From: Bauldia sp.
GTDB taxonomy: Bacteria > Pseudomonadota > Alphaproteobacteria > Rhizobiales > Kaistiaceae
DNA length: 41,076 nt
Assembly (NCBI GenBank): GCA_020849325.1
Contig: JADLGL010000115.1
Coordinates: 1 to 41,076, forward strand
Direction of reading: 5' to 3'
Shown: positions 19,102 through 40,334 of the stretch, in pieces
Position numbering within the stretch: position 1 is the first letter of the stretch
Layout of the letters: each line of letters starts with the position of its first letter
Program-made: the position numbers and the translations under genes
The notes under the pieces: model-generated
Database searches by the model: none
Told to the model about the DNA's origin: nothing
Seen by the model: the letters and a program-made list of their open reading frames with translations, nothing else

Positions 19102-21021
19102 CTAGTTCGCGGCGGTCGCCTCGGGGAGACCGAAGACGTACAGCGTCGAGCCCGACCGGCGGTAGCGGTCGGCGGCATCGGCGGCGGCGTCGTAGGCAAC
19201 CGGGTTGTTGTTGGCTGCAGACGACGCGATGATCGCCACGTACTGGCGGCCATCCGGCCCGAGATAGGTGATCGGGCTCTGGTTGAAGTTCGAGCCCGTC
19301 CGGAAGGTCCAGACGATCTCGCCATTGGTGGCATCGATGGCCCGCATGAGGCCGTCCTGCGGCGCGCCCTGGAACAGGAGGTCCGTGGCGGTCGCGAGGA
19401 TCGGCGCATGGTTGCCGCGGGGCGCGTTCAGCTGCCAGACGGTCTGGCCCGTGACCGGGTCGTTCGCCTGGAGTTCGCCCTGGTGGTCCGACCGCTGGCC
19501 GTCATTGTCGACGAACGGGTTGGTCGCGGGACCGCCGAACTGCAGCAGCGTGTAGCCTTCGCCCGGCGTGTACTCGCCCTCGATGACATGGAAGCTGAAG
19601 CAGCCATTGAGGGTCGAGGTGTAGAGGAGGCCGGTGCGCGGCGACCAGGCGTCGTTCTGCCAGTTGCGGGCGAAGATGCCGGGGCAGATGTCGGTGACCT
19701 CGGTGCCGGTGTAGTCGAGGACGGTGGTCCCGTCCGCGAGGCGGCCGGGGTCGGCCTGGGTGTAGTTGCGGCGGTCCTCGACGCGCGAGAACATCCACTT
19801 GTCCATGTTGTAGAGCGCACGGCCGGTCGCCATGTCGACGCCGACGGTGGTGTTCGAGAACACGAACTGCCACGGCTGGACGAGCATCTCGCCGGTGTTG
19901 CGGTCCCACACATAGAAGTAGCCGGTGCGGGCCGCCTTGATGGCGGTCTGGCGCATCTCGCCGTTGATCATGAGGTCGACGAGCGGGGTCTGGAGCGGCT
20001 CGTCATAGTCCCACGGATCGGCCGGGGTGATGTTGTAGGCCCAGATCAGTTCGCCGGTCGTGGCGTCGCGCGCCATCTCCGAGGCGCACCAGTTGTTGCG
20101 GTAGTCGACGAGACCGCCGTTGGCGTCGAGCGTGACGACGCCCCACTCACGGCGATAGTCCGGGTTCCACGGACCGCAATTGCCGGTCGAGTAGTGGAAG
20201 ATGTTCGCGGCTTCGTCGTAGGTGAAGTAGCCCCACACCGTGCCGCCGCCACGACGCCAGCTGTCGCCGTACCAGGTGGCGAGCGAGCCGACCTTGTCGT
20301 CGGCGTAGAACGGGTTGAACCGCGGGCCGATGCCGACCTCGTTGTCCGGACCCATCGAGTACATCACCCACTGCAGATTGCCGGTGTTGATGTCGAAGGC
20401 CTGGACCTTGCCGCGGACGCCGCGCTCGCCGCCGGCATTGCCGGAGATGAGGAGGTCGCCGACGACGATCATGTTGCCGACGGTCGTCTCACCGATCGAC
20501 AGGTCCGCGCCCACGGTGCGCCAGAGCGCTTCGCCGGTGGCGGCGTCGAGGGCGAAGTGCTGGCCGTCGAGGGTGTTGAAGAAGATCTTCCCTTCGGCGT
20601 AGTTGAGGCCGCGGGTCTGGGCGCCGCAGCAACCCTGACGGGTCGCTTCCTCGACGTTCATGTCGGGGCGGAATTCCCACTTGATGACGCCGTCGCGCGT
20701 GAGGTCGAGCGCGTAGACGTAGTTCGGCTTCGGCGAGACGATGTACATCGTGTCGCCAACGACGAGCGGCGAAGCCTCATGGCTGTCGAGAATGCCGATC
20801 TGCCACGTCCAGGCGATCCGGAGATCGGCGACGTTGTCGAGCGTGATCTGATCGAGCAGCGAATAGTTCCAGCCGGCGTAGTTGATGTTCGGCATCACTA
20901 CGTTGCCGGGGTTTGCGACGAGGGCGTCCACATCGTCATTCGCTGATGCGCCCGTCGCGAGGCCGGCTCCGGCCGCCAGTGCGGCTGCGGACGCGGACCA
21001 CTTGAAAACAACACCCTTCAC
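19102..21021 (-). CDS. PQQ-dependent methanol/ethanol-type dehydrogenase with lanthanide signature
   Basis: This is an eight-bladed quinoprotein alcohol dehydrogenase of 639 residues, exported by a signal peptide (MKGVVFKWSASAAALAAG, cleavage near GASA). It oxidises an alcohol in the periplasm with PQQ. The vicinal Cys pair (131-132, QGCCGAQTRG) is present. Metal ligands match the family: Glu199 (GGERGVRG), Asn281 (STGNCGPWNP) and catalytic Asp338, with an additional Asp340 two residues later (PWDYDEP), the signature of lanthanide-dependent XoxF/ExaF-type enzymes instead of Ala in calcium enzymes. GTG at 21021 is chosen because GGGAGGA lies 5 bases upstream; ATG at 21045 is the alternative. 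It follows a cytochrome c fusion gene in the same operon. The substrate is unknown. Confidence 0.92.
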   Translation of the reverse strand: MKGVVFKWSASAAALAAGAGLATGASANDDVDALVANPGNVVMPNINYAGWNYSLLDQITLDNVADLRIAWTWQIGILDSHEASPLVVGDTMYIVSPKPNYVYALDLTRDGVIKWEFRPDMNVEEATRQGCCGAQTRGLNYAEGKIFFNTLDGQHFALDAATGEALWRTVGADLSIGETTVGNMIVVGDLLISGNAGGERGVRGKVQAFDINTGNLQWVMYSMGPDNEVGIGPRFNPFYADDKVGSLATWYGDSWRRGGGTVWGYFTYDEAANIFHYSTGNCGPWNPDYRREWGVVTLDANGGLVDYRNNWCASEMARDATTGELIWAYNITPADPWDYDEPLQTPLVDLMINGEMRQTAIKAARTGYFYVWDRNTGEMLVQPWQFVFSNTTVGVDMATGRALYNMDKWMFSRVEDRRNYTQADPGRLADGTTVLDYTGTEVTDICPGIFARNWQNDAWSPRTGLLYTSTLNGCFSFHVIEGEYTPGEGYTLLQFGGPATNPFVDNDGQRSDHQGELQANDPVTGQTVWQLNAPRGNHAPILATATDLLFQGAPQDGLMRAIDATNGEIVWTFRTGSNFNQSPITYLGPDGRQYVAIIASSAANNNPVAYDAAADAADRYRRSGSTLYVFGLPEATAAN

Positions 21022-21188
21022 GGTATTCCTCCCGTTGTTCGGCATAAAGATTCTTGCAGGCAGTTTCTTGCAGGGAACGTGTCGTCTCGAACTGTGCCGG
21101 ACCTCCTTTCGTCAGAGTGCTTCCATGCCTCCTGATGGAACCCCGCCGGATCGCGCCAACGATCCGGCGGGTGGAGGCTCGACGCGGG

Positions 21189-22472
21189 CTACTGCGGGCG
21201 AACCTGGCCCACCATTGCCGCGGTAACCACGCCGTAGGCGTTGCCCCACGAGTTCCGGATGTAGGTGGAAATCGCAGCGATCTGCGGGTTGGTCAGACGG
21301 CTGCCGAACTCCGGCATGCCGTGGTTCGGGTAGCCCTGGATGATCTGGTTGATCGTGGCGCCGGCGCGCGAGACGACCGGCGAATTGACGAGGGCGAAGC
21401 CGATGCCGCCCTGGCCCTGGTCACCGTGGCAGGCCAGGCAGTTGGTGGCGTAAAGGCGCTGGCCCTCGGTCATGAGGGCCGCCATCACTGCCGCCGCGTC
21501 CTCGACGGGGGCGGCGGCCGCTGCCGGAGCGGGAGCGGTGGCCGGTGCCGCGGCGGGCGCGGCCGCGAGCGGCACGGCCTTGGCCGAGAAGACCCCGACC
21601 GGCGTCGCGCCGGGGGTCATGAGCACGTCGAAGCGCGCCTCGACGACGTAGGCGACGTCGCCGATCTGGGCGACGGCGGTCGCCTGCGTGAAGCCGTCGG
21701 CGATCGTCTCGACCGTCGCGGCGTCCCCGTCGATGGTGATGCGGTCGAGCGTGCCGCCGGCATTCTCGGTGAGGAGAAGGGCCGTGCCGTCGACGGTCGT
21801 CCGCATGCCGTCGGGGCCCTGGAGCGGCCGCGACAGCGTCAGCGTGGTGTACGTGCCGCCGGCGACGTCGATGCGATAGAGGTCACCCGTCTGGACGTTG
21901 TTGGCGTAGAGATCGTCGCCGATAAAGGCGATGCCGTCGATGCCGGTGATGGCGGCGTCCGACAGGACGACGGCGAGTTCGGTGGCTCCGGGCGCGAGCG
22001 CGAGGACGCGGCCGACCGGCGAGGTGTCGGCGACATAGGCGGTGCCGTCGGCACCGACCGCGATGTCGTTGCAGAACCCGCCGCCGGGGAACTCGTAGCG
22101 GCCCGTCTCGGCCGCGGTGGCGAGGTCGAAGGTGAGGAGGAAGGCGACATTGGAGCCGAAGGCGCCGTCGGCGCAGACATATGCGGTGTCACCCGCGGCG
22201 AAGACGCCGAGGACGAGGCCGCCATCGATGAGGCCGGTGGTGATCCACGGCTCGGCGGTCGTGGCGCCGGGTGCGGCGCGGTACACGCTGTTCAGCGCGA
22301 CGCTGCCGATCAGGAGGCCGCCGTCGGGGGTCGCGGCGATGCTTTCCGGGTGGAAGCCTTCGCCGAGCACGACGTCGGCCGCATTCTGCGCGCTGGCGAA
22401 ACCGGCCGCCGCCGCCAGTACACCTCCAGCGAGCGCGATCGACGCGCCGGAGATCAACGTACGCTTGGTCAT
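21189..22472 (-). CDS. Beta-propeller (SMP-30/NHL-like) and cytochrome c fusion protein
   Basis: This 427-residue secreted protein (signal peptide MTKRTLISGASIALAGG..., cleavage near ASA-Q) has an N-terminal propeller-like region of about 260 residues with repeated GI/GDDLYANN..TGDLYRID blocks. An Ala/Pro-rich linker (about 295-325) leads to a class I cytochrome c domain with heme motif CLACH (Cys345, Cys348, His349) and the axial ligand candidate Met386 (NHGMPEFG). It lies directly upstream of the PQQ dehydrogenase in the same operon, so the likely role is electron acceptor for that enzyme, with the propeller perhaps docking a partner or substrate. The combined architecture was not recognised as a known family. 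Confidence 0.85.
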   Translation of the reverse strand: MTKRTLISGASIALAGGVLAAAAGFASAQNAADVVLGEGFHPESIAATPDGGLLIGSVALNSVYRAAPGATTAEPWITTGLIDGGLVLGVFAAGDTAYVCADGAFGSNVAFLLTFDLATAAETGRYEFPGGGFCNDIAVGADGTAYVADTSPVGRVLALAPGATELAVVLSDAAITGIDGIAFIGDDLYANNVQTGDLYRIDVAGGTYTTLTLSRPLQGPDGMRTTVDGTALLLTENAGGTLDRITIDGDAATVETIADGFTQATAVAQIGDVAYVVEARFDVLMTPGATPVGVFSAKAVPLAAAPAAAPATAPAPAAAAAPVEDAAAVMAALMTEGQRLYATNCLACHGDQGQGGIGFALVNSPVVSRAGATINQIIQGYPNHGMPEFGSRLTNPQIAAISTYIRNSWGNAYGVVTAAMVGQVRPQ

Positions 22473-22672: not shown

Positions 22673-22704
22673 CACGATACTTTGAGTCGTGACACTATGT
22701 CAAC

Positions 22705-22720
22705 GACAACGTGAGTTGTC
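22705..22720. promoter_or_regulatory. Candidate MarR operator, regulator side
   Basis: GACAAC-GTGA-GTTGTC is a perfect 6-bp inverted repeat, 16 bp in all, lying 33 bases before the MarR ATG and downstream of the predicted promoter. Its size fits a MarR dimer, and binding there would give autorepression. A related sequence lies on the other side of the intergenic region at 22565. Confidence 0.55.
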
Positions 22721-22752
22721 TCACAATCCCATCCGTCAGGAAACCAACCAGA

Positions 22753-23220
22753 ATGGCTCCCAGCCGGGATCCTGAATTCGAGGCCTTGATCGACAAGGCG
22801 CACGGGTTCACGCAGATGTATGAGCGCTGGCTGGCCCGCCGGCTCGGCGGCGGCGATGGCGTGACCCTCGCCCGCCTGAAGGTTCTCTTCATTCTCCACG
22901 ATCTCGGACCGCAGAAGATGAGCGTCCTCGCCCGCGACGCGAAGGTTGCGCCGCGGACGCTGACGACGCTCGTCGACGCGCTCGAACGCGAGGGCCTCGC
23001 TCGCCGCATTCCGCATTCGGTCGACCGTCGCGCGACCATCATCGAGATGACGCCGGCCGGCATGAAAGCCGTCGAGAGCAAGTCCGGACCCTACTGGGCG
23101 GCGAAGAATTTCCTGTTCGTCGGGCTCACGGCCGACGAACGCAACACGATGGGCCGCATCTACGATCGCTGGTCGCAGATGGTCGAAGAGGATCTCCTCC
23201 GCATGGGCGAGGAGGTCTGA
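22753..23220 (+). CDS. MarR-family transcriptional regulator
   Basis: The 155-residue protein has the MarR winged helix: VTLARLKVLFILHDLGPQKMSVLARDAKVAPRTLTTLVDALEREGLARRIPH, with the wing at HSVDRRATIIEMT. ATG at 22753 gives a normal MarR length; a GTG at 22711 is an in-frame alternative but would place the perfect operator inside the gene. It is divergent from the PQQ dehydrogenase operon (280 bases between starts), which it may repress. Confidence 0.9.
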   Translation: MAPSRDPEFEALIDKAHGFTQMYERWLARRLGGGDGVTLARLKVLFILHDLGPQKMSVLARDAKVAPRTLTTLVDALEREGLARRIPHSVDRRATIIEMTPAGMKAVESKSGPYWAAKNFLFVGLTADERNTMGRIYDRWSQMVEEDLLRMGEEV

Positions 23221-23450
23221 CGCGATCCAACCGGCTGGAGGAAATCGCCGGAGCTCGACGGAGACGCTTGCCTGGCGGCGAGAACGCAGTCCGGGGGGAA
23301 GCGCGGCGTGCCGGCCGGGGCGGATTGGCTTTGCCCGGCGGATCGTGCAACCGTACCGAAGTCCCGCCGCCCGCCGGTCCACTGCCGCCGCCTGCGCCGT
23401 CGGCGACCAGCCACGGCCTTCCTGCCCGCCAGCACCTCGCCAGGACGACA

Positions 23451-23876
23451 ATGACCGAGCGCCTCGTTCCGAATTCAGCGCGGTTCCCCGATCAGACGAT
23501 CGACGACGAGACGCTCCTGTTCGACGCCGACACGGGCAATCTCGTCCTTCTGACGGGTTTTGGCTCGGTGGTGTGGACGCATCTTCTGGCGGGGGCGGAT
23601 GCGGCGGCGATCGCCGCAGGGGTCGCGGAGCGGTTCGGGAGCGAGGCGGCGGAGGCGACGCGGGCGTTCATCGGCGAACTGCGGACCGCGGAGATGATCG
23701 TCCCGTCGGCGGCGCCGCCCGAAGCGATCGTGGCCGTAGTGGCATGGCCGGCCGCGTTCACCGCGCCGGCGATCGAACGCTATGACGACATCGCGAAGAT
23801 CATCGCGATGGACCCGATCCACGACGTCGACGCCACCACCGGCTGGCCGCGCGCGGCGCCGGACGGCGAGGTGTAG
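23451..23876 (+). CDS. PqqD-like protein (possible RiPP recognition element)
   Basis: The 141-residue protein begins with a PqqD-type winged-helix pattern: DDETLLFDADTGNLVLLTGFGSVVWTHLL, then IAAGVAERFG and a last helix ending FIGELRTAEMIV (residues about 15-85). PqqD domains bind leader peptides in PQQ and many RiPP pathways, and also occur next to HprK-related kinases. About 55 C-terminal residues are extra and unrecognised. AGGA 5 bases before the ATG sets the start. It is the first gene of a six-gene operon that includes a kinase and an asparagine synthase. No precursor peptide gene was found in the 230 bases upstream. Confidence 0.72.
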   Translation: MTERLVPNSARFPDQTIDDETLLFDADTGNLVLLTGFGSVVWTHLLAGADAAAIAAGVAERFGSEAAEATRAFIGELRTAEMIVPSAAPPEAIVAVVAWPAAFTAPAIERYDDIAKIIAMDPIHDVDATTGWPRAAPDGEV

Positions 23877-23884
23877 GCGCGGCG

Positions 23885-24880
23885 TTGCTCCTCGCTCTCG
23901 CCGGACGGACGGTTCGCGTCGAGACGGCGAGCGACCGCGCGCTCGGCGCCATTGCCCCGGCATTCTCGCATCTCGCCGGATCGGCTCCGGGCGCAGTCGC
24001 CGGCGCGCCGATCCGCTGGAGGATAGCGGAGGAGGATGACGCCTGGCGGCCCGAAGGATACGGGCCGAACGGCGCCTACCGCATGAGCGGCGGTGGTTTT
24101 GCGGTCGTGCAGGGCGAGCCGGCGGCGCTCGAATCGTACCTGCCGGGGGAAGGCATCACGCTCCGCGCCGGCCGACGGGCGCTGGGCGCCGGCGATTTCC
24201 GTGCCCATCCCGGCAGTTTCGCGCTGGCCGCCGCGCTGTCGGGACCGGGCGCGCAGGTGCTCCACGCCGGCGCCATCGCCCATGACGGCGCCGCGGTGCT
24301 CCTCGTCGGCGTCGGCGGCGTCGGGAAATCGACGACGGCGCTCGCCTGCGCGCTCGGCGGGGCGGATTTCCTCGGCGACGATCTCGTTCTGGTCGAGGCA
24401 GGCCGGGGCGCGGCAGCGCCGCGCGTGCACTGCCTGTTCGCGACCGCGAAGCTGAACGACGACAGCGCCCGCGCCCTTGGCGTCGGGAACTGGCGGCCGA
24501 TCGGCATCACGCCGAAGAACAAGACCGTGGTCGCGGTCGGCGACCGCGTGGCGATCAGACGATCGGCGCCGATCGCGGCGGTGGTCCTCCTCGCGCCGCC
24601 GGCCAATGGCGAACCACGGCCCGAGCGGATCGCGCCGGCGGCGGCCATGGCGCTGGTGATGCCGACCGCGCTCCCCGTCGCGTGCCGCACGGGGTCGCCG
24701 GCCGACCTTCTCGGCGTCGTCGCCGACCTCGCGCGCCGCGTTCCGGCGTTTCGCCTCCCGGTGACCTGGGATCTCGATGCGCTCCGCTCGGCCGTCCGCA
24801 GCGTCCTGCCGCGGGGCGCAGAAGCCAGCGGAAGCATCGCCCGTCCGGGGCGTCTCGCGCTGCCGGATGGCGTGTCGTGA
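23885..24880 (+). CDS. HprK-related kinase
   Basis: The 331-residue protein resembles the C-terminal catalytic domain of HPr kinase/phosphorylase: P-loop GVGGVGKST (residues 142-150) after HAGAIAHDGAAVLLV, and the acidic DFLGDDLVLVEAG motif (Asp165, Asp166). The N-terminal 110 residues are unlike HPr kinase and may bind another substrate. Related kinases occur in lasso-peptide clusters, where they phosphorylate the peptide, and beside PqqD-like proteins of unknown role. The start is TTG at 23885, nine bases after the PqqD-like gene; no better start was found. Its stop overlaps the next GTG start. Confidence 0.78.
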   Translation: MLLALAGRTVRVETASDRALGAIAPAFSHLAGSAPGAVAGAPIRWRIAEEDDAWRPEGYGPNGAYRMSGGGFAVVQGEPAALESYLPGEGITLRAGRRALGAGDFRAHPGSFALAAALSGPGAQVLHAGAIAHDGAAVLLVGVGGVGKSTTALACALGGADFLGDDLVLVEAGRGAAAPRVHCLFATAKLNDDSARALGVGNWRPIGITPKNKTVVAVGDRVAIRRSAPIAAVVLLAPPANGEPRPERIAPAAAMALVMPTALPVACRTGSPADLLGVVADLARRVPAFRLPVTWDLDALRSAVRSVLPRGAEASGSIARPGRLALPDGVS

Positions 24881-25986
24881 CCGTTGCCGTGCCCGTCGTC
24901 CTGTTCCTCTTCAACCGTCCTGCGACGCTGTCGCGGGTGATCGACGCCGTTCTTGCGGCACGACCGGAAACGGTGGTGGCCATCGCCGACGGGCCGCGCG
25001 CGAACTGGCCGGACGACGGCCCGCGCTGCGCCGCGGCGCGGGCGCTGGTCGATCGCCTCGAGGGGCAATGCGCGGTCGTCCGGCACTACTCCGAAACGAA
25101 TCTCGGCTGCGACGCGCGGATCCGGTCCGGGCTCGACTGGGTGTTCGAGCGCTACCCGGAGGCGATCGTCCTCGAGGACGACGTCCTGCCCGATCCGTCC
25201 TTCCTCCCATGGGCGGAACGGATGCTTCACCGCTACCGCGACCGGCCGGAGGTGATGCACGTTTCCGGCCGCAACCATCTCGGCCGGTGGACGCTATCGG
25301 GCGACGGCCACGCGCTGACCCGCCGCGCCAGCGCGTGGGGCTGGGCGACGTGGCGGCGGGCGTGGCAGTGCCCCGTCGAAACGCCCGGCAACGCGGCGGC
25401 CCTCGCGAACGCGCCGGGCGCGGCGTCGGTCGACCCGCTCGTCGCCGAGCAGTTCCTGATGCTCCAGGAGGCTGCCTCGAACGCCGGCCCGGTGGCGTGG
25501 GACTGCGCGTGGGAGCTGAAGAAGGCGCTCGCCGGAGGCCTGTCGGTCGTGCCGGCCGTGAACCTCACCGCGCATATCGGCTACGGTCCCGGCGCCACCC
25601 ACAATCGCTACGCCGCCGACATCGGCGCGAGCGTGCCCGTGTTCTCGGTCGCGGGCCGGCCCGATGCCGTCGACCGGTGCGAAGACGATTCGCGGCTCGA
25701 TCGCTGGCAGATGATGATCGAGCTGATGGCGACCTATCGCGCGCCGGAGATGGTACGGCGGCTCGCGCGAATGGCGCAGTTCCCGGCCGCCGCAGGCTGG
25801 GCCGGGGACAGGCGCCTCCGGCAGCATCTCGCCCCGTTCCGCCACGCGGAAGAAACGCTGGCCGTTCTCGAGCACTTCTGCGCCTCCGGCGCGCCGCGCG
25901 AGCCGCTGGCGGACCTCTTCGGGGCGTTGCGGGGTGTCGCCGGCCGACCGGCGGCGGCCCGGCCCGCGGTCGGGGGCGTAGCCTGA
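24877..25986 (+). CDS. Glycosyltransferase, GT-A fold
   Basis: The 369-residue protein has a GT-A nucleotide-sugar fold: VVLFLFNRPATLSRVIDAV at the N-terminus, NLGCDARIRSGLDWVF, and a metal-binding acidic motif in AIVLEDDVLPDPSFLPWAE (about residues 104-122). This type of transferase is common in glycan assembly clusters; donor and acceptor are unknown. The GTG start overlaps the kinase stop as GTGA, and its end overlaps the asparagine synthase start, so the operon is translationally coupled. The C-terminal about 100 residues are helical and less conserved. Confidence 0.85.
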   Translation: MTVAVPVVLFLFNRPATLSRVIDAVLAARPETVVAIADGPRANWPDDGPRCAAARALVDRLEGQCAVVRHYSETNLGCDARIRSGLDWVFERYPEAIVLEDDVLPDPSFLPWAERMLHRYRDRPEVMHVSGRNHLGRWTLSGDGHALTRRASAWGWATWRRAWQCPVETPGNAAALANAPGAASVDPLVAEQFLMLQEAASNAGPVAWDCAWELKKALAGGLSVVPAVNLTAHIGYGPGATHNRYAADIGASVPVFSVAGRPDAVDRCEDDSRLDRWQMMIELMATYRAPEMVRRLARMAQFPAAAGWAGDRRLRQHLAPFRHAEETLAVLEHFCASGAPREPLADLFGALRGVAGRPAAARPAVGGVA

Positions 25987-27785
25987 TGTGCGGCATCGCC
26001 GGACTCATCGGGCGCCGCGATCCGGACTTTGCGGCGATCGCCGATGCGCGCCTCCGCCACCGCGGGCCGGACGGCGCCGGCAGCTTCGCCGAGGACGACG
26101 TCACGCTCGTCAGCCGGAGGCTCGCCCTCCTCGATCCGTCCGATGCCGGGCGTCAGCCGATGATTTCCGCCAGCGGCCGCCACGTCATCGTCTTCAACGG
26201 CGAGATCTACAATTTCCGCGACCTCCGCGAGCCGCTCCAGCGCGCGGGCGTGGCGTTCCGCTCGGGGACCGACACCGAACTGGTGCTGGAACTCTTCGCC
26301 GCCGAAGGATGGCGCTGCCTGCCGCTTCTGCGGGGCATGTTCGCGTTCTGCATCTACGACCGCGCCGAACGCACCGCATTCCTCGCCCGCGATCCGCTGG
26401 GGATAAAACCGCTCTATCGCCGGCACGGACCCGGCGGCGAGCTCGCCTTCGCCTCGGAGGTGCGGACGCTGCTCGCGACCGGGCCGGCGCGGCCGGAACT
26501 CGATCCCGCCGCGCTCGCCCACTATCTCGCCTTCGGCACGCTTCCCTCCGGCCGCACGCTCGTCGCCGGCGTCACGCCGCTTCCGCCGGGGCATTTCGGC
26601 GTGTGGAAGGGAGGACGATGGACCGAGGAGCGGTTCTGGCGCCCCGATTTCGCGCCGCGGATCGGCGATGCGGCGGAAGCGGTGCGGGTTGCGCGGGCGG
26701 CGCTCGGGGCGAGCGTCGGGGCTCACCTCGTCAGCGACGAGCCGGTGGGCCTCCTTCTCAGCGGCGGGATCGATTCGGCCGCGATCATGGCGCTGGCCGG
26801 AGGCGGCGTGCCGGCCGTGACGATCGGCGTTGCCGACCCGGCGCTCGACGAATCCGCCTTCGCGCGACGCGTCGCGCGGCATTTCGGGGCGGACTGCCAC
26901 GCGTTCGAACTGTCCGCCGACCAGGCCGCAGCACGCGTGCCGGAATTCGTCGCCGGGATGGACCAGCCGAGCCTCGACGGCTTCAACATTTTTTGCGCTG
27001 CCCGCGCGGCGCACGAACGCGGCTTCAAGGCGGTGCTCGCCGGCTCGGGCGGCGACGAATTGTTTGCCGGCTATCCATCCTTCACTGAAATCCCGCAGCT
27101 TCTTGCGGTGCGGCGGCGCGTGCAGCCCGCGGCGCGCCGGTTCGGCGCGGCGCTCGCCGGGCGGAGCGATGCCGGCAGCCGGCGGATGGCGGCCCTCCTC
27201 GACGGTGCGGCCACGGTCGATGCGGTGTACGGGGGCTATCGGTCGCTGTTCACGCCGCGCGAGGTGCAGTCGATCCTCGCCGGATGGGGCATTGCGCCGA
27301 TGGCGGCAGCGGCCGGCGACGACCGGGGGATCGGTCCGGCCGCCTTCCCCAACGACCTCGACCGGCTCGGTTGGCTCGAAACGACGAATTTCCTCGGCAA
27401 CCGGCTCCTCCGCGACGCCGACGATTTCGGCATGGCGGCAGGCGTCGAAATCCGCGTTCCGTTCGCGGACGCGGCGCTCCTCGACGCGATCGCGCCGATC
27501 GCCGCGCCGATCCGGCTCGCGCCCGGCAAGGCGCTCCTGAAGCGCGCGGTGCCGGAACTCCCGGATTGGCTGACGGCGTTGCCGAAGCGCGGCTTCACCT
27601 TCCCGTTCAGGGCGTGGTTCGACGGCGCGAGCGCGGGCGGGTTCCTCGCGGGCTGGCGGCTCCCCGCGCTCCCGGCGAACCTCGACGTGCGCGACGAAAC
27701 CCGGCGCTGGGCGCTCCTCGTCCTCGGCGAGTGGCTCGAGCGCCATATCGGCGTGTCGTTCTACGAGCGATCGGGCGCGGCATGA
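25986..27785 (+). CDS. asnB: Asparagine synthase (glutamine-hydrolysing), class B
   Basis: This 599-residue protein has an intact N-terminal glutaminase domain with Cys2 as nucleophile (MCGIAGLIGRRD, RHRGPDG, FNGEIYNFRDLR) and a C-terminal synthetase domain with the ATP-binding SGGIDS motif (259-264) and GSGGDELFAGY (353-363). It forms an amide from a carboxylate, ATP and glutamine-derived ammonia. Inside a cluster with a PqqD-like protein, a kinase and glycosyltransferases, it more likely amidates a cluster product than makes free asparagine; lasso-peptide cyclases are related but lack glutaminase activity. ATG at 25986 overlaps the preceding stop, and its own stop overlaps the next ATG. Confidence 0.9.
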   Translation: MCGIAGLIGRRDPDFAAIADARLRHRGPDGAGSFAEDDVTLVSRRLALLDPSDAGRQPMISASGRHVIVFNGEIYNFRDLREPLQRAGVAFRSGTDTELVLELFAAEGWRCLPLLRGMFAFCIYDRAERTAFLARDPLGIKPLYRRHGPGGELAFASEVRTLLATGPARPELDPAALAHYLAFGTLPSGRTLVAGVTPLPPGHFGVWKGGRWTEERFWRPDFAPRIGDAAEAVRVARAALGASVGAHLVSDEPVGLLLSGGIDSAAIMALAGGGVPAVTIGVADPALDESAFARRVARHFGADCHAFELSADQAAARVPEFVAGMDQPSLDGFNIFCAARAAHERGFKAVLAGSGGDELFAGYPSFTEIPQLLAVRRRVQPAARRFGAALAGRSDAGSRRMAALLDGAATVDAVYGGYRSLFTPREVQSILAGWGIAPMAAAAGDDRGIGPAAFPNDLDRLGWLETTNFLGNRLLRDADDFGMAAGVEIRVPFADAALLDAIAPIAAPIRLAPGKALLKRAVPELPDWLTALPKRGFTFPFRAWFDGASAGGFLAGWRLPALPANLDVRDETRRWALLVLGEWLERHIGVSFYERSGAA

Positions 27786-28468
27786 CGGGTTCGCTCCCGA
27801 CGGTCGGCGTGGTGATGCCGGTCCGGAACGGCGCGAAGACGCTCGCCGCGGCGATCGCGAGCGTGCTCGCGCAATCGCCGCGGCCGGACGACGTGCTTGT
27901 CGTCGACGGCGGCTCGGAGGACGGGAGCGCGGCAATCGCGGCGGCCTTCGCCGGCGTTCGGGTCATTTCGCAGGCCGGCGGCGGGCTCGGCGCCGCGCGG
28001 AACGAGGGCATCGCGGGCGTCGAAGGCGATGTCGTCGCCTTCTGCGATGCGGACGATCGCTGGACGCCGGGTTCCCTCGCCCTGCGCCTCGCGCGCTTCA
28101 CCGCGCAGCCGGCCTGCGGCGCCGTCATCGGGCACATCGAACGGACTCTCGCCGACGGGGAGACCGCCACGCCGCAGCAGGCATCGCGCCTCGGGCAGGT
28201 CGAACCCGGCTACACGCCGGGCGCCCTCCTCGTGCGGCGCGAGGCATTCCACGCCGTGGGGCCCTTCGATGAAGCGCTCACGCTCGGCAGCGACAGCGAC
28301 TGGTTCGTGCGGCTCGTCCAGTCGGGCGTGCGGTTCGACGTCCTGCCTGACACGGTTCTCCTCAAGGGTGTCCGCGGCAGCAGCCTCTCGACGGACGTCG
28401 CCACCTACCGCCGCGAGCTCCTCGAAGTGGCGCGCCGCTTCATCGACCGCCGGCGGGGCACGTCGTGA
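27782..28468 (+). CDS. Glycosyltransferase family 2 protein
   Basis: The 228-residue protein is a classic GT2 enzyme: VGVVMPVRNGAKTLAAAIASVL, VVDGGSEDGSA, GLGAARNEGIA and the DxD-type motif FCDADDRW, with a later GSDSDWFVRL acceptor segment. It transfers a sugar from a nucleotide donor to an unknown acceptor at the cytoplasmic face. ATG at 27782 overlaps the asparagine synthase stop (ATGA), and its end overlaps the next GTG. Confidence 0.92.
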   Translation: MTGSLPTVGVVMPVRNGAKTLAAAIASVLAQSPRPDDVLVVDGGSEDGSAAIAAAFAGVRVISQAGGGLGAARNEGIAGVEGDVVAFCDADDRWTPGSLALRLARFTAQPACGAVIGHIERTLADGETATPQQASRLGQVEPGYTPGALLVRREAFHAVGPFDEALTLGSDSDWFVRLVQSGVRFDVLPDTVLLKGVRGSSLSTDVATYRRELLEVARRFIDRRRGTS

Positions 28469-29802
28469 CGGCGTCGCCCGCGGCACTGAAACTGCTCCAC
28501 GTCATCCCCCGCTTCGTCGGCGGCGGGCCGGAGCGATCGCTGCTCGCCTATGCGGCCGAGGAGCGGCGGGCGGGCATCGCGAACCGGCATACGGTTGCGG
28601 TTCTCGATCCGCCGATCTCGGTCCAGATGCTCCTTGCGGCACGAAAGCTCGGCATGGCGCTCGTCGGCCGCCCGACGCACGACGCCCTGTCGCGCCTGAT
28701 CGAGGACGCCGACATCGTTCTGGTCCATTTCTGGAACCACCCCGTGCTCGCCGACCTCCTCCGGACGCTGCCCTTTCCGCCGGCGCGCGTCGTCCTCTGG
28801 TCGCGCGTCCTCGGCCTTCGTGCGCCGCAGGTGCTGACGGAGGACGTCGCCGGGTTCGGCGACCGGCTGGTGGTGACGGCGCGGCGGACACTGGAGAGCG
28901 CCGGGGCGCGCCGCGCGATCGCGCAGGGCGCGGCGGTGACGTACGTTCCGGGAATTGCCGACATGACCCGCCTCGACGGCTACGCGCCCCGGCCGCATGA
29001 GGGCGTCGTCGTCGGCTATATCGGCGTCGTCGCGGACACGAAGATGCATCCGCGCTTTGCCGAGATGAGCGCCGCGGTGCGCGCCGGCGTGCGCTTCGTG
29101 GTCTGCGGCGGAGGGGGCGGGGAAGCGGCGCTCGCGGCGCGGTTTGCGGCACTCGGGCTTGCCGACCGGCTGGCGATGCGCGGCCCGGTGGACGACATCC
29201 GCACCGAGCTCGAGGGTTTCGACGTGTTCGGCTATCCGCTGGCGGAAGACACCTACGCCACGAGCGAGAAGGCGCTGCAGGAGGCGATGTGGGTCGGCGT
29301 TCCGCCGGTGGTGTTTCCGCACGGCGGCGTGCGCGATCTCGTGGCGGATGGCGAGACCGGCCTCGTGGCGACGGGCGAGAACGGGTACGCGGCGGCGGTG
29401 GACCGCATCGCCGGTGACGCCGCGCTCCGGCGCCGCCTCGGCGAAAACGCCCGCGTCTTCGCCCGCGCCGAATTCGCGCCGGCGCGCCGGGCGCGGGAGC
29501 TGCAGCAGCTGCTCCGCGAGGTGATGGAGGGCGAGCGCCGCACGCGGGCCGTCCTGCCGGGAGCCGGAGAGAGTGCGGCTGCCGGCTTCGTGCGGATGCT
29601 CGGGGATCAGGCGGGGGCGTTCGCGGCGGCGCTGGGCGCGGCAGCCGGCGGAAGCGCCGCTGCCGCCTCCGATGCGCGGATCGCCTCCGCGTCCGCGCTC
29701 CTGGCGCGCGGCGAGGGCGGTGTCGTCCAGCATCGCAACGCCCACCCGGATGATCCGCACCTTCGGCACTGGGCGGATCTCGTCACCGGGCGAGGCGGCT
29801 GA
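28465..29802 (+). CDS. Glycosyltransferase, GT-B fold (GT4-like)
   Basis: The 445-residue protein has a GT-B architecture: N-terminal KLLHVIPRFVGGGPERSLLAYAAEE, then VVVGYIGVVADTKMHPRFAEM opening the C-terminal domain, and the family signature ALQEAMWVGVPPVVFPHGGVRDLVADGETG. It is the last gene of the six-gene operon. About 85 residues at the C-terminus (from about 360) are Ala/Gly-rich and outside the usual fold. The GTG start overlaps the preceding stop as GTGA. Substrates are unknown. Confidence 0.88.
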   Translation: MTASPAALKLLHVIPRFVGGGPERSLLAYAAEERRAGIANRHTVAVLDPPISVQMLLAARKLGMALVGRPTHDALSRLIEDADIVLVHFWNHPVLADLLRTLPFPPARVVLWSRVLGLRAPQVLTEDVAGFGDRLVVTARRTLESAGARRAIAQGAAVTYVPGIADMTRLDGYAPRPHEGVVVGYIGVVADTKMHPRFAEMSAAVRAGVRFVVCGGGGGEAALAARFAALGLADRLAMRGPVDDIRTELEGFDVFGYPLAEDTYATSEKALQEAMWVGVPPVVFPHGGVRDLVADGETGLVATGENGYAAAVDRIAGDAALRRRLGENARVFARAEFAPARRARELQQLLREVMEGERRTRAVLPGAGESAAAGFVRMLGDQAGAFAAALGAAAGGSAAAASDARIASASALLARGEGGVVQHRNAHPDDPHLRHWADLVTGRGG

Positions 29803-29876
29803 GCCGCGCGTCACAAGTGGACTACGCGCACCGTTGGCCTCACAATGCCCCGCGGGGCTCCGCGGGAGATCGGTCC

Positions 29877-30287
29877 ATGAATTCCGCCCGTCGCCTGTTC
29901 TTCGCCTTCGCTGCCGTCATCGCGGCCGTTCCGGCTGCCGCGCAGCCCAATCGCCTCCCGGACTTTCAGCTCGCCAACCGGCTCTCGCTCGGCTGCGCCA
30001 TCGAGAACGAGAAGGTGTTCGCCGTCACCAACACGACCCCGAACGCGATCGTCGAGGGGACGCCCGTCTTCGTCGAGATCGTCCGCATGCCCGATGGCCA
30101 GCGCGACGTCCTCGCCTGGCACGGCGCGACCATCCCGGTCGGCGGCACCATCCGCGAGGGCATCTACCAGGCGAGCGCCTGCGCCGCATGGATCGAGGTG
30201 GAGCTCATGCTGGCGCCCTCGGTGCTGACGCCGGCTCCGCCCGGTCCCGCCGCGCCCTTGGGAGGTCCGCCGACGCGGGCTCCCTAG
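29877..30287 (+). CDS. Small secreted hypothetical protein
   Basis: The 136-residue protein has a signal peptide (MNSARRLFFAFAAVIAAV, cleavage near AAA-Q) and a compact beta-rich body with two Cys residues (LGCAIENEK and ASACAAWIE) that may form a disulfide, ending in a Pro-rich tail. It was not recognised. GGGAG lies about 9 bases upstream of the ATG, and the CCCGCGG/CCGCGGG hairpin (29849-29866) just before could mask it. It begins 74 bases after the glycosyltransferase operon; whether it shares that transcript is not clear. Confidence 0.7.
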   Translation: MNSARRLFFAFAAVIAAVPAAAQPNRLPDFQLANRLSLGCAIENEKVFAVTNTTPNAIVEGTPVFVEIVRMPDGQRDVLAWHGATIPVGGTIREGIYQASACAAWIEVELMLAPSVLTPAPPGPAAPLGGPPTRAP

Positions 30288-30300
30288 CCGATTCCTTGAT

Positions 30301-30352
30301 GGAGCATGATCTTTGTCGAAGAACCGGCAGCCACTTCTTCGGATCGTGCTCC
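30301..30352. repeat. Rhizobiales-type interspersed palindromic repeat
   Basis: GGAGCATGATC (30301-30311) pairs with GATCGTGCTCC (30342-30352) with one mismatch, and inside it CGAAGAA (30317-30323) pairs with TTCTTCG (30335-30341) around ACCGGC. The arrangement GAGCATGATC...ACCGG...CACTT...GATC.TGCTC is that of a very common dispersed intergenic palindrome in Rhizobiales genomes, known to me from memory only. It lies between the small secreted protein and the binding-protein gene. Confidence 0.7.
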
Positions 30353-30465
30353 AGGGGCTGCCAGCCGGCCCCGATGACTCTGCCGCCCCGGTTGTGGCAG
30401 TGTTCCGGCCAATGCGGCGCACGGCGTTGGGGCCGAACGCGCGAATGTCAGGGATGGAGTGGAAC

Positions 30466-35105: not shown

Positions 35106-35818
35106 GCCGCGGGGCCTCCGCCGAGAAAACTCCGCGCGACTTCCGGATCGGCGAGGAGTTCGCGGCCCGTGCCAGTGAACAGGTTGCGGCCGCCGGCGAG
35201 GACGAAGCCCCGGCTCGCGATCGCGAGCGCCTGCCGGGCGTTCTGCTCCACCATCAGGATGCCGACGCCGCCCCGGTTGATGGCAACGATGCGCTCGAAG
35301 ATCTCGAGGACGTATTTCGGGCTGAGGCCAGCCGACGGCTCGTCCAGCATCAGGAGCTTCGGCTTCCCCATCAGCGCCCGGCCCATCGCCACCATCTGGC
35401 GCTGGCCGCCCGAAAGTTCGCCGGCCTTCTGGCGGCGCTTCTCCTTGAGCGGCGGGAACATCTCGAACACCGAGGCGAGGGTGTCGCCGTAGGCGTCGGC
35501 GCGGATGAAGGCGCCCATTTCGAGGTTTTCCTGCACCGTCAGCGAGGGGAAGACGTTCTTCTCCTGCGGCACGTAGCCGAGCCCCATCGGCACCAGCGCG
35601 TCCGGCCGCGCATTGGCGATGTCCCGGCCCTCGAACCGGATCGCGCCGGCGGTCACCTTCACGAGGCCGAACACCGCCTTCAGCGTCGTCGATTTGCCCG
35701 CGCCGTTCGGCCCGACGATGACGCCGATATCGGAGGCCGCGATGGCGATGTCGACGCCGTTGAGGATCGGCACCCCGCCATAGCCGCCGACGACGGCGTC
35801 GAGGCTGATGAGGCTCAC
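35102..35818 (-). CDS. livF: ABC transporter ATP-binding protein (LivF)
   Basis: The 238-residue ATPase has Walker A GPNGAGKST, the Q-loop region PQEKNVFPSLTVQENLEMG, signature LSGGQRQ, Walker B LLMLDEPSAGLSP and the H-loop replaced by MVEQNAR as usual for LivF. Its ATG overlaps the livG stop by four bases. Confidence 0.95.
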   Translation of the reverse strand: MSLISLDAVVGGYGGVPILNGVDIAIAASDIGVIVGPNGAGKSTTLKAVFGLVKVTAGAIRFEGRDIANARPDALVPMGLGYVPQEKNVFPSLTVQENLEMGAFIRADAYGDTLASVFEMFPPLKEKRRQKAGELSGGQRQMVAMGRALMGKPKLLMLDEPSAGLSPKYVLEIFERIVAINRGGVGILMVEQNARQALAIASRGFVLAGGRNLFTGTGRELLADPEVARSFLGGGPAA

Positions 35819-36600
35819 GCCGGCTCCTCCAGCGGCGTGCCGAAATAGGCCTCCACGATGCGCGGATCCTGCCGGAGCGCGGCGAGCGGGCCCTCGGCCA
35901 GCACGGTCCCCTGCGCCATAACGATCACCGGGTCGCAGAGCCGCGCGATCAGGTCCATGTCGTGCTCGATGACGAAGAAGGTGTAGCCGAGCTCGCGGTT
36001 CATCCGCTCGACGTTCCCCGCCAGCGCATGAAGGAGCGTTCGGTTCACGCCGGCGGCGACCTCATCGAGAAGAACCGCCTTCGCATCGACCATCATCGTC
36101 CGGCCGAGCTCGAGGAGTTTCTTCTGGCCGCCGGAGAGATTGCCGGCGAGTTCGTCGCGCACCTTCGCAAGGCCGAGGAAGTCGATCACCTCCAGCGCGC
36201 GCCGCCGGGTTTCGACCTCGCCCGCAACCACCTCGCGGCGGCGGACCCAGGTCTTCCAGAGGCTCTCGCCCGGCTGCCGCGGCGGAACCATCATGAGGTT
36301 CTCGACCGCGGTGAGATGGCTGAATTCGTGGGCGATCTGGAACGTCCGGAGAAGGCCTTTCCCGAACAGTTCGTGCGGCGGAAGGCCGGTGACGTCCTCG
36401 CCGTCGAAGATCACCGAACCCGTGTCGGGCTTCAGGAGGCCGGCGACGATGTTGAAGAGCGTCGATTTTCCCGCGCCGTTCGGCCCGATCAGCCCGGTGA
36501 TCGAGCCGCGCGCCACGGACAGTGAACAGTCACTGACCGCGGCAAGCCCGCCGAAGCTCTTGCCGACCGCGCGAACGTCGATGACCAGGTCTGCAGCCAA
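35815..36600 (-). CDS. livG: ABC transporter ATP-binding protein (LivG)
   Basis: The 261-residue ATPase has Walker A GPNGAGKST, the LivG-type RTFQIAHEFSHLTAVENLM segment, signature LSGGQKK, a Walker B region (KAVLLDEVAAGVN) and FFVIEHDMDLI. In Walker B the usual Glu-Pro is Glu-Val, which is a common LivG variant. The start is TTG at 36600, supported by GAGGGGG about 8 bases upstream. It is the first gene of the livGFHM operon and is divergent from the methyltransferase/molybdate operon. Confidence 0.93.
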   Translation of the reverse strand: MAADLVIDVRAVGKSFGGLAAVSDCSLSVARGSITGLIGPNGAGKSTLFNIVAGLLKPDTGSVIFDGEDVTGLPPHELFGKGLLRTFQIAHEFSHLTAVENLMMVPPRQPGESLWKTWVRRREVVAGEVETRRRALEVIDFLGLAKVRDELAGNLSGGQKKLLELGRTMMVDAKAVLLDEVAAGVNRTLLHALAGNVERMNRELGYTFFVIEHDMDLIARLCDPVIVMAQGTVLAEGPLAALRQDPRIVEAYFGTPLEEPA

Positions 36601-39474: not shown

Positions 39475-40334
39475 ACGCGCCGGCGCGCCGACCGCCGGTC
39501 GCGCCCGCCACCCCGCCGGCCAAAGTCCTGATCGCGGAACGGCTTGCCATCGGCCATGGGCGGACCGTCATAGCCGCCGACATCGACGTGGCAATTGCCC
39601 GCGGCGAGGTGCTCTGCCTCATCGGCCCGAATGGCAGCGGCAAGACCACGCTGTTCCGGACGCTGCTCGGCCTCCTCCCGGCGCTGTCCGGCGCGGTGAT
39701 GCTCGACGGACGCCCGCTCGCCGCCTTCGGCCGCGCTGCCCTCGCGCGCCGCGTCGCGCACGTGCCGCAGGCCGAGACGAGCGCCTTCGCCTACACCGTG
39801 CTCGACCTCGTGCTGATGGGACGCACGGCCCATCTCGGCCTCTTCGCCACGCCCCGGCCCGCCGACATGGACGCGGCGCTGGCGGCACTCGGGACGCTCG
39901 GCATCGCCGACCTCGCGGGGCGCGACGCCGCGCTCATCTCCGGCGGGCAGCGACAATTGATGCTGATCGCCCGCGCGCTGGCGCAGGATGCCGGCATCCT
40001 GGTCCTCGACGAGCCGACCGCCAGCCTCGACCTCGGCAACCGCGTCCGCGTGCTGACGGAAATCCGCCGGCTTGCCGACCGGGGCATCGCCGTGATCCTC
40101 TCGACCCACGAGCCGGAGCAGGCGCTCGCGATCGCCGATACGGCGGCGATCCTCGCCGGGGGTCGGCTCGTGGCCTCCGGTCGCGTGGCCGAAATCGTCA
40201 CGGCCGAGGCCCTGACCGCCGCCTACGGGACGGCGGTCAGCGTCGAGCATACCGCGGGCGGCCGGCTCGTCGTGGTGCCGGAACTGCCGCCGCGCGGAAC
40301 GGACAGAAGGTCCAGACCGGAGGAAGATCCATGA
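39471..40334 (+). CDS. ABC transporter ATP-binding protein, BtuD/FecE type
   Basis: The 287-residue ATPase has Walker A GPNGSGKTT, VPQAETSAFAYTVLDLVLMGR (Q-loop), signature ISGGQRQ, Walker B ILVLDEPTASLD and the H-loop STHEPEQAL. It drives the FecCD-type permease. GTG at 39471 overlaps the permease stop and fits the family N-terminus; a GTG at 39465 would add two residues. The end overlaps the molbindin ATG (ATGA). Confidence 0.94.
   Translation: MNAPARRPPVAPATPPAKVLIAERLAIGHGRTVIAADIDVAIARGEVLCLIGPNGSGKTTLFRTLLGLLPALSGAVMLDGRPLAAFGRAALARRVAHVPQAETSAFAYTVLDLVLMGRTAHLGLFATPRPADMDAALAALGTLGIADLAGRDAALISGGQRQLMLIARALAQDAGILVLDEPTASLDLGNRVRVLTEIRRLADRGIAVILSTHEPEQALAIADTAAILAGGRLVASGRVAEIVTAEALTAAYGTAVSVEHTAGGRLVVVPELPPRGTDRRSRPEEDP

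Follow-up and report, generated by a model that had tools for sequence, protein, structure and literature searches.

A PqqD-like protein carrying a leader-like motif and a conserved tail in an operon of HprK-like kinase and glycosyltransferase genes of Bauldia sp.

The 41,076-nucleotide stretch of Bauldia sp. DNA analysed here, referred to as the window, contains six genes arranged head to tail on the forward strand between positions 23,451 and 29,802, which form a single tight operon as had been predicted from the sequence. These genes encode, in order, a PqqD-like protein, an HprK-like kinase, a putative GT-A glycosyltransferase (named GTx), a class-B asparagine synthase, a family-2 glycosyltransferase and a family-4 glycosyltransferase. 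The PqqD-like protein is a predicted lasso-type peptide-recognition element (RRE) whose chain also carries a motif similar to lasso leader peptides and a conserved C-terminal peptide. We suggest that it presents this peptide in cis to the kinase and the glycosyltransferases instead of a separate precursor. The module may be related to lasso and linear-polyphosphorylated-peptide (LPP) clusters, with the leader and presented peptide fused to the RRE, and may work together with glycan assembly. Both proposals are held at slightly below even odds (probability of about 0.45).

The PqqD-like protein scored above the Pfam cut-off for PF05402 (30.0 versus 23.4 bits), and its domain plan comprises a predicted RRE (residues ~3–87), a linker, a leader-like segment and a C-terminal tail. 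The winged-helix fold on which the original prediction depended was supported by AlphaFold2 (AF2) at a predicted local distance difference test (pLDDT) score of 87.6. The closest solved structures found by Foldseek and VIA were lasso B1 proteins with bound leaders, and the model agrees with the discrete RRE fold of lasso clusters. AF2 also predicted an extra strand at residues 107–111, and the segment spanning residues 101–110 had a mean pLDDT of 97. This segment includes the motif F103-x-x-P106-x-I108. Lasso RREs are known to recognise [Y/W]xxPx[L/V/I/F/A] (PMC13381572), and YxxPxL spans −17 to −12 in lasso precursors (PMC10368454). Among 60 tail-bearing relatives (58 distinct sequences), in the choice of which the motif played no part, [FYW]xxPx[LIVFAM] started exactly 18 residues before the DPIH block of the tail in 47, and it was found elsewhere between −40 and −1 in only two. 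Its first residue is mostly Phe (35/60), which is not named in the published lasso RRE motif. By the numbering of lasso precursors the DPIH block begins at core position +2, near Ser3; BsfK phosphorylates Ser3 (PMC10368454) and LppK phosphorylates residue S3 (PMC13381572).

The tail pattern DP[IVP][HM].{2,9}GWP was present in 60 of the 70 PqqD-type hits from 69 loci, 2–20 residues from the C-terminus, and the ten tail-less hits include lasso-type and fused proteins. A stricter form, DP[IV]H[DE]V-x(3,4)-GWP, fits 55 of the 60 tails. When 57 tails were aligned (L023, L058 and L072 were left out), D121, P122, H124, G131, W132 and P133 were invariant, partly because the rows had been selected by the tail pattern. 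Identity to the window protein drops to 20% among the aligned rows, and the linker ahead of the block differs between them in both sequence and length. In the source genome the tail block matched two proteins at E 0.1, both PqqD-like, and no other match was obtained at this threshold. No mention of the tail letters was found in the open-access literature. The second PqqD-like protein that matched the tail block belongs to another tail-bearing unit of the source genome (L105:8409–11331 on contig C92) with the order PqqD-HprK-GT2-GT2 (GT2, family-2 glycosyltransferase) and without asparagine synthase, which has a counterpart, L106, in the sister genome. A variant class of tail, DPPMP/DPPLP, occurs in the PqqD-like proteins at L037:7441–7872, L045:9388–9834 and L049:2777–3133.

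The gene associations were examined in loci collected with two short kinase patterns that are blind to PqqD, of which 54 were confirmed from 64 matches. Within 7 kb of the kinase, own profiles detected PqqD in 45 of the 54 loci, with the tail in 43. GT2 was present in 51, two or more glycosyltransferases regardless of family in 49 and an NTP_transf_5-type nucleotidyltransferase in 40. ABC domains, not all of which were checked as exporters, were found in 18 loci, family-4 glycosyltransferase (GT4) in 15, GTx in eight and asparagine synthase in four. Many of these loci are on cut contigs; in the 32 having 5 kb on both sides, the numbers were 29 for PqqD, 27 for the tail, 31 for GT2 and 27 for the nucleotidyltransferase. 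The clustering of these genes is not chance, and the PqqD-like and HprK-like proteins were found together with glycosyltransferases far beyond near relatives, as the original prediction had required. The tail-bearing loci span eleven phylum-level labels, grouped by record titles and mostly those of metagenome-assembled genomes (MAGs): Pseudomonadota, Cyanobacteria, Actinobacteria, Acidobacteria, Planctomycetes, Chloroflexi, deltaproteobacterial groups, Balneolaceae, Gemmatimonadetes, Nitrospirae and Eremiobacterota. At least one label looks unreliable: the record L027, titled "Klebsiella pneumoniae isolate LH-02apr19-159", looks like an environmental MAG.

The order PqqD-HprK-GTx-GT2-GT4, with one or two GTx, recurs in L004, L005, L007, L009 and L119, and the same genes stand in a different order in L006. 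The asparagine synthase, which the original prediction had counted in the set, is not part of what is conserved and is a local addition. Only the window and L003 have it in line, in L003 behind GTx in a window-like order, and the hits near L022, L033 and L045 occupy other positions. L003 is the tail locus of the sister genome G297 of the same genus, on a contig of Bauldia sp. TGS_PRO15, a Bauldia MAG.

The relation between the tail and the lasso leader peptidase (B2) was monitored in 297 genomes of the same order, 28 of which contained the kinase at E 1e-10 in a total of 40 loci; tail and B2 searches covered these 28 genomes and G297. The tail was present within 6 kb of the kinase in 24 loci and none of these had B2 within 6 kb, while B2 was found in eight of the 16 tail-less loci (Fisher p 0.00017, with the loci treated as independent although they are related). 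PF14907 was present within 6 kb in 22 of the 24 tail loci versus nine of the 16 others, and the two tail loci lacking it both belong to the source genome, one being the window and the other its second copy. A tail-only search in 398 genomes of the phylum returned seven tails in six genomes (E 1e-5), and every one of these tails had a kinase at most 6 kb away. In 61 relatives the tail was matched strongly 16 times and weakly twice, and a kinase lay within about 4 kb of 15 of the strong matches. The sixteenth is the tail-bearing PqqD of L116 (G307), around which neither kinase nor glycosyltransferase was found in the 20 kb examined.

Among the family assignments of the six proteins, those of PqqD and asparagine synthase were above cut-off and those of GT2 and GT4 were clear; the HprK-like kinase could be placed only by profile, and the first glycosyltransferase had no single-sequence match. 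As a single sequence the kinase remained below the curated cut-offs (PF07475, 18.5 versus 33.3; TIGR04352, 32.3 versus 200). When a 26-row kinase profile was searched against the PDB, solved HPr kinases ranked first (1jb1, E 7.1e-6). H127, K148 and D166 are invariant and D165 is conserved in at least 90% of 49 rows, as in the His-Lys-Asp-Asp set of HprK-like peptide kinases, to which they correspond by order only. AF2 predicted a phosphoenolpyruvate carboxykinase-type fold (pLDDT 93.4), and all 50 matches listed in the fold search were phosphoenolpyruvate carboxykinases. HprK structures were missing from this list, but their absence does not argue against kinship, as the sequence profile finds HprK first. 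No close relatives of the kinase were confirmed in viral contigs. GTx alone matched no family, and its 12-row profile weakly matched GNT-I structures in the PDB (E 0.0025); D101 and D102 are invariant and E100 is present in at least 90% of the 12 rows, and the GNT-I Pfam model matched two of the 12 members. The asparagine synthase was above the TIGR01536 cut-off (341.9 versus 267.1 bits) with 1ct9 AsnB as its best PDB match, and its translation contains the glutaminase Cys2, as had been noted, along with an SGGIDS motif.

The operon likely helps to build a phosphorylated surface sugar or peptide. In the reading we prefer, the leader-like segment and the tail would likely dock in cis on their own RRE, and the kinase may be recruited to this self-loaded protein, by analogy with BsfB1 helping BsfK. 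The kinase would then phosphorylate either the chain so presented or a glycan carried by the PqqD-like protein. The glycosyltransferases, together with an NTP_transf_5 nucleotidyltransferase whose gene lies elsewhere in the genome, would add sugars to give a cell-surface product, a carboxyl group of which may be amidated by the asparagine synthase. With leader and presented peptide as part of the RRE, neither a precursor gene nor B2 would be needed, and a leader protease would be dispensable because nothing has to be cut off. A further-reaching and less probable version is that the protein is an uncut carrier, with RRE, leader and conserved acceptor peptide in one chain, on which the kinase and glycosyltransferases build a phosphorylated, protein-primed glycan in genomes under at least eleven phylum labels.

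Several observations weigh against the cis presentation of a peptide. The block residues were modelled at low confidence (pLDDT about 58–60), and the leader-like motif is not at −18 in 13 of the 60 proteins. No Ser, Thr or Tyr is conserved within the block, and Ser and Thr are both absent from DPIH to the end in 11 of the 60 tails, which leaves the presented peptide without the acceptor that such kinases usually act on; phosphate would then have to go to a glycan, to some residue outside the tail or to one of the invariant residues that have no hydroxyl group. A role of the tail as a general Ser/Thr phosphoacceptor was thus unsupported. Three tails (L037, L045 and L049) lack both the His and GWP. 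No PqqD was detected within 7 kb in nine of the 54 kinase loci, several of which are cut contigs. Conversely, the kinase is absent from about 9 kb around one tail-bearing PqqD (L116:9421–9732), and it is also lacking beside a PqqD whose tail matches in part (L152:9776–10126, G135; 19.6 bits), which adjoins GT2 and nucleotidyltransferase.

Next in probability, and a serious competitor, is that the tail serves only for docking, as a conserved plug that holds the RRE and either the kinase or the nucleotidyltransferase together, with a sugar or lipid-linked glycan produced by the glycosyltransferases as the substrate and no peptide modified. The invariant D, P, H, G, W and P with no conserved hydroxyl acceptor, and the tails devoid of Ser and Thr, agree with such an adaptor. 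So does a weak match of the kinase with a model for FomB-type kinases of small molecules (17 bits, cut-off 400). The PqqD-HprK fusions of L077, L080 and L083 are tail-less, as expected if the tail merely joins the two proteins, although they may simply be another branch. An adaptor by itself leaves unexplained the lasso-type motif at fixed spacing and a block at the core position. The same fusions adjoin a nucleotidyltransferase, and their examined loci contain no GT2.

The original prediction had offered either a precursor encoded elsewhere or a glycan pathway not yet described. The tie to glycosyltransferases held, and a third option, the leader-like motif and conserved peptide inside the PqqD-like protein itself, had been overlooked. 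A separate precursor bound in trans, with the cis segment as an autoinhibitory placeholder, appears unlikely. Related lasso and LPP systems do have separate precursors (PMC13381572, PMC10368454), and missing neighbours do sit elsewhere in this genome, such as the PF14907 gene on another contig. The absence of a precursor at the locus, noted originally, agreed with a search of 22,700–30,400 for open reading frames (ORFs) of 30–120 amino acids: among 32 ORFs, three were mostly outside genes and none of these carried [YWF]xxPx[LIVFA]. This search covered the operon gaps only, with no genome-wide search for YxxPxL ORFs, and its sensitivity is limited since a stricter search for ORFs of 35–75 amino acids with the motif and a lasso-like core gave a precursor-like ORF in only one of three control lasso loci (L147; none in L146 and L148). 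An LPP-type precursor (YxxPxVLxHQxIxFETxxS) was likewise not indicated by any YxxP-type small ORF in the gaps, the full motif not having been searched genome-wide. A trans precursor is also at odds with the tail block matching no other protein of the genome. The ORF at L147:12882–13046 (minus strand) is probably a separate lasso precursor of 54 amino acids with a YETPSL leader and a C-terminal Ser; its locus has an HprK gene and B2, and no tail was found in its genome at E 0.01.

An ordinary or decayed lasso-peptide cluster is very improbable and was set aside. The RRE, HprK-like kinase and asparagine-synthase-like protein do occur together here, and ruminal Butyrivibrio lasso clusters are reported to contain HPr kinase, PqqD, nucleotidyltransferase and GT2 (PMC7533575). 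Against this, the leader protease noted as missing was indeed absent, no B2 (Transglut_core3, PF13471) match being found in the source or sister genome at E 1e-5; the asparagine synthase reached 129.8 bits versus a cut-off of 525 for lasso cyclase (NF033535); the operon gaps contain no precursor; and tail and B2 exclude each other. A role of the PqqD-like protein in pyrroloquinoline quinone (PQQ) biosynthesis is weaker still and was rejected: a PF01011 PQQ-dependent dehydrogenase lies 2.4 kb upstream (19,102–21,045) and also in the sister locus L003, but the genome has its own PqqD-PqqE pair on contig C87 (PqqE 597.5 bits, cut-off 381) and the dehydrogenase cluster c7 has five members in four compared loci.

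The known systems share several ingredients with the operon. LPP clusters (LppA/B/K/N/D/S, Bacillota) have a discrete RRE adjoining an HprK-like kinase, a YxxPx leader motif, a nucleotidyltransferase, an exporter in part of related loci, no cyclase and a reported capsular polysaccharide setting (PMC13381572); the RRE protein here, at 141 amino acids, is longer than a plain RRE. LPP differs in that its precursor is separate and has a C-terminus that varies, and in having a protease similar to signal peptidases (PMC13381572), whereas the window has the leader-like motif and conserved peptide in the RRE chain, glycosyltransferases in the operon and no separate precursor in the gaps. The operon also lacks a nucleotidyltransferase, the source genome's only PF14907 match being on contig C66, and an MsbA-like exporter, the ABC-domain hits of the window (35,243–36,582 and 39,540–40,118) being more than 5 kb away. 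The phosphorylated lasso systems paeninodin, pseudomycoidin and Bsf combine an RRE with a kinase of the His-Lys-Asp-Asp set, and PsmN nucleotidyltransferase is linked to hexose on phospho-Ser (PMC9266682, PMC10368454); glycosyltransferase genes may be near (PMC9266682, PMC10368454, PMC7533575). The window differs from them in its lack of B2, of a cyclase above cut-off and of a precursor in the gaps, and in its tail-bearing RRE.

The NCBIfam HPr-rel-A system, judged by model names, also joins a PqqD-like protein and an HprK-related kinase, and it was rejected with both TIGR04352 and TIGR04353 (25.4 versus 35) below cut-off. The asparagine-synthase-like protein resembles the XrtA/PEP-CTERM amidotransferase, which belongs to a glycan setting, and an identity with it was not supported (TIGR03108, 304 bits versus a cut-off of 816.9).

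The ingredients are not new, and ruminal lasso clusters are already in print with HPr kinase, PqqD, nucleotidyltransferase and GT2 together (PMC7533575). In the accessible parts of the open-access literature, no description was found of an RRE that combines a leader-like motif in cis with a conserved tail. Members of PF05402 that exceed a plain RRE in length and have no other Pfam annotation make up 21% of the family and have been flagged for study (PMC12710340); one widespread group of them gains here an anatomy of RRE, leader-like strand and conserved tail, together with partner genes. If the cis presentation is true, peptide-maturation machinery would have been turned to glycan assembly by a leader fused to its own recognition domain, and genome mining based on precursors would miss such systems. 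It would also bear on the reason, left open by the authors, why paeninodin and LPP clusters are reported inside capsular polysaccharide loci (PMC13381572).

Table 1. Positions of the operon features in the window.
Feature	Position	Strand	Basis
PqqD-like protein, 141 aa	23451..23876	+	PF05402 30.0 bits; AF2 pLDDT 87.6; lasso B1-leader structures closest
Leader-like motif F103-x-x-P106-x-I108 of the PqqD-like protein	23757..23774	+	spacing in relatives; predicted strand
Conserved block DPIHDVDATTGWP, residues 121-133, 8 residues from the C-terminus	23811..23849	+	alignment of relatives
HprK-like kinase, 331 aa, TTG start	23885..24880	+	profile versus PDB HPr kinases; AF2
GTx, putative GT-A glycosyltransferase, distant GNT-I likeness	24877..25986	+	12-row profile
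Class-B asparagine synthase-like amidotransferase, lineage-specific addition	25986..27785	+	TIGR01536; PDB 1ct9
Family-2 glycosyltransferase, 228 aa	27782..28468	+	PF00535 99.1 bits
Family-4 glycosyltransferase, 445 aa	28465..29802	+	PF13692 60.1 bits, PF00534 58.7 bits

The window is contig C115 of the source genome G000, an assembly of 2.97 Mb and 98.8% completeness, and Bauldia is placed by NCBI in Kaistiaceae, Hyphomicrobiales. The junctions are as tight as had been described, with differences in detail: the gap between the PqqD and HprK genes is eight bases (stop ending at 23,876, TTG start at 23,885) and not nine, and instead of four ATGA/GTGA overlaps there are three of four bases (GTGA at 24,877, ATGA at 27,782 and GTGA at 28,465) and one of a single base (TGATG, with the asparagine synthase ATG at 25,986). 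The PF14907 match of contig C66 lies in a polysaccharide locus (L141:1–18630) with counterparts in the sister genome (L142), where its neighbours are a carbamoyltransferase, a GDP-mannose dehydratase and glycosyltransferases of families 4 and 2, along with a weak Wzy-like match below cut-off. Upstream of the operon, the region 19,102–22,472 of the window encodes the PQQ-dependent dehydrogenase and a cytochrome-c-domain protein, both of which have counterparts in L003.

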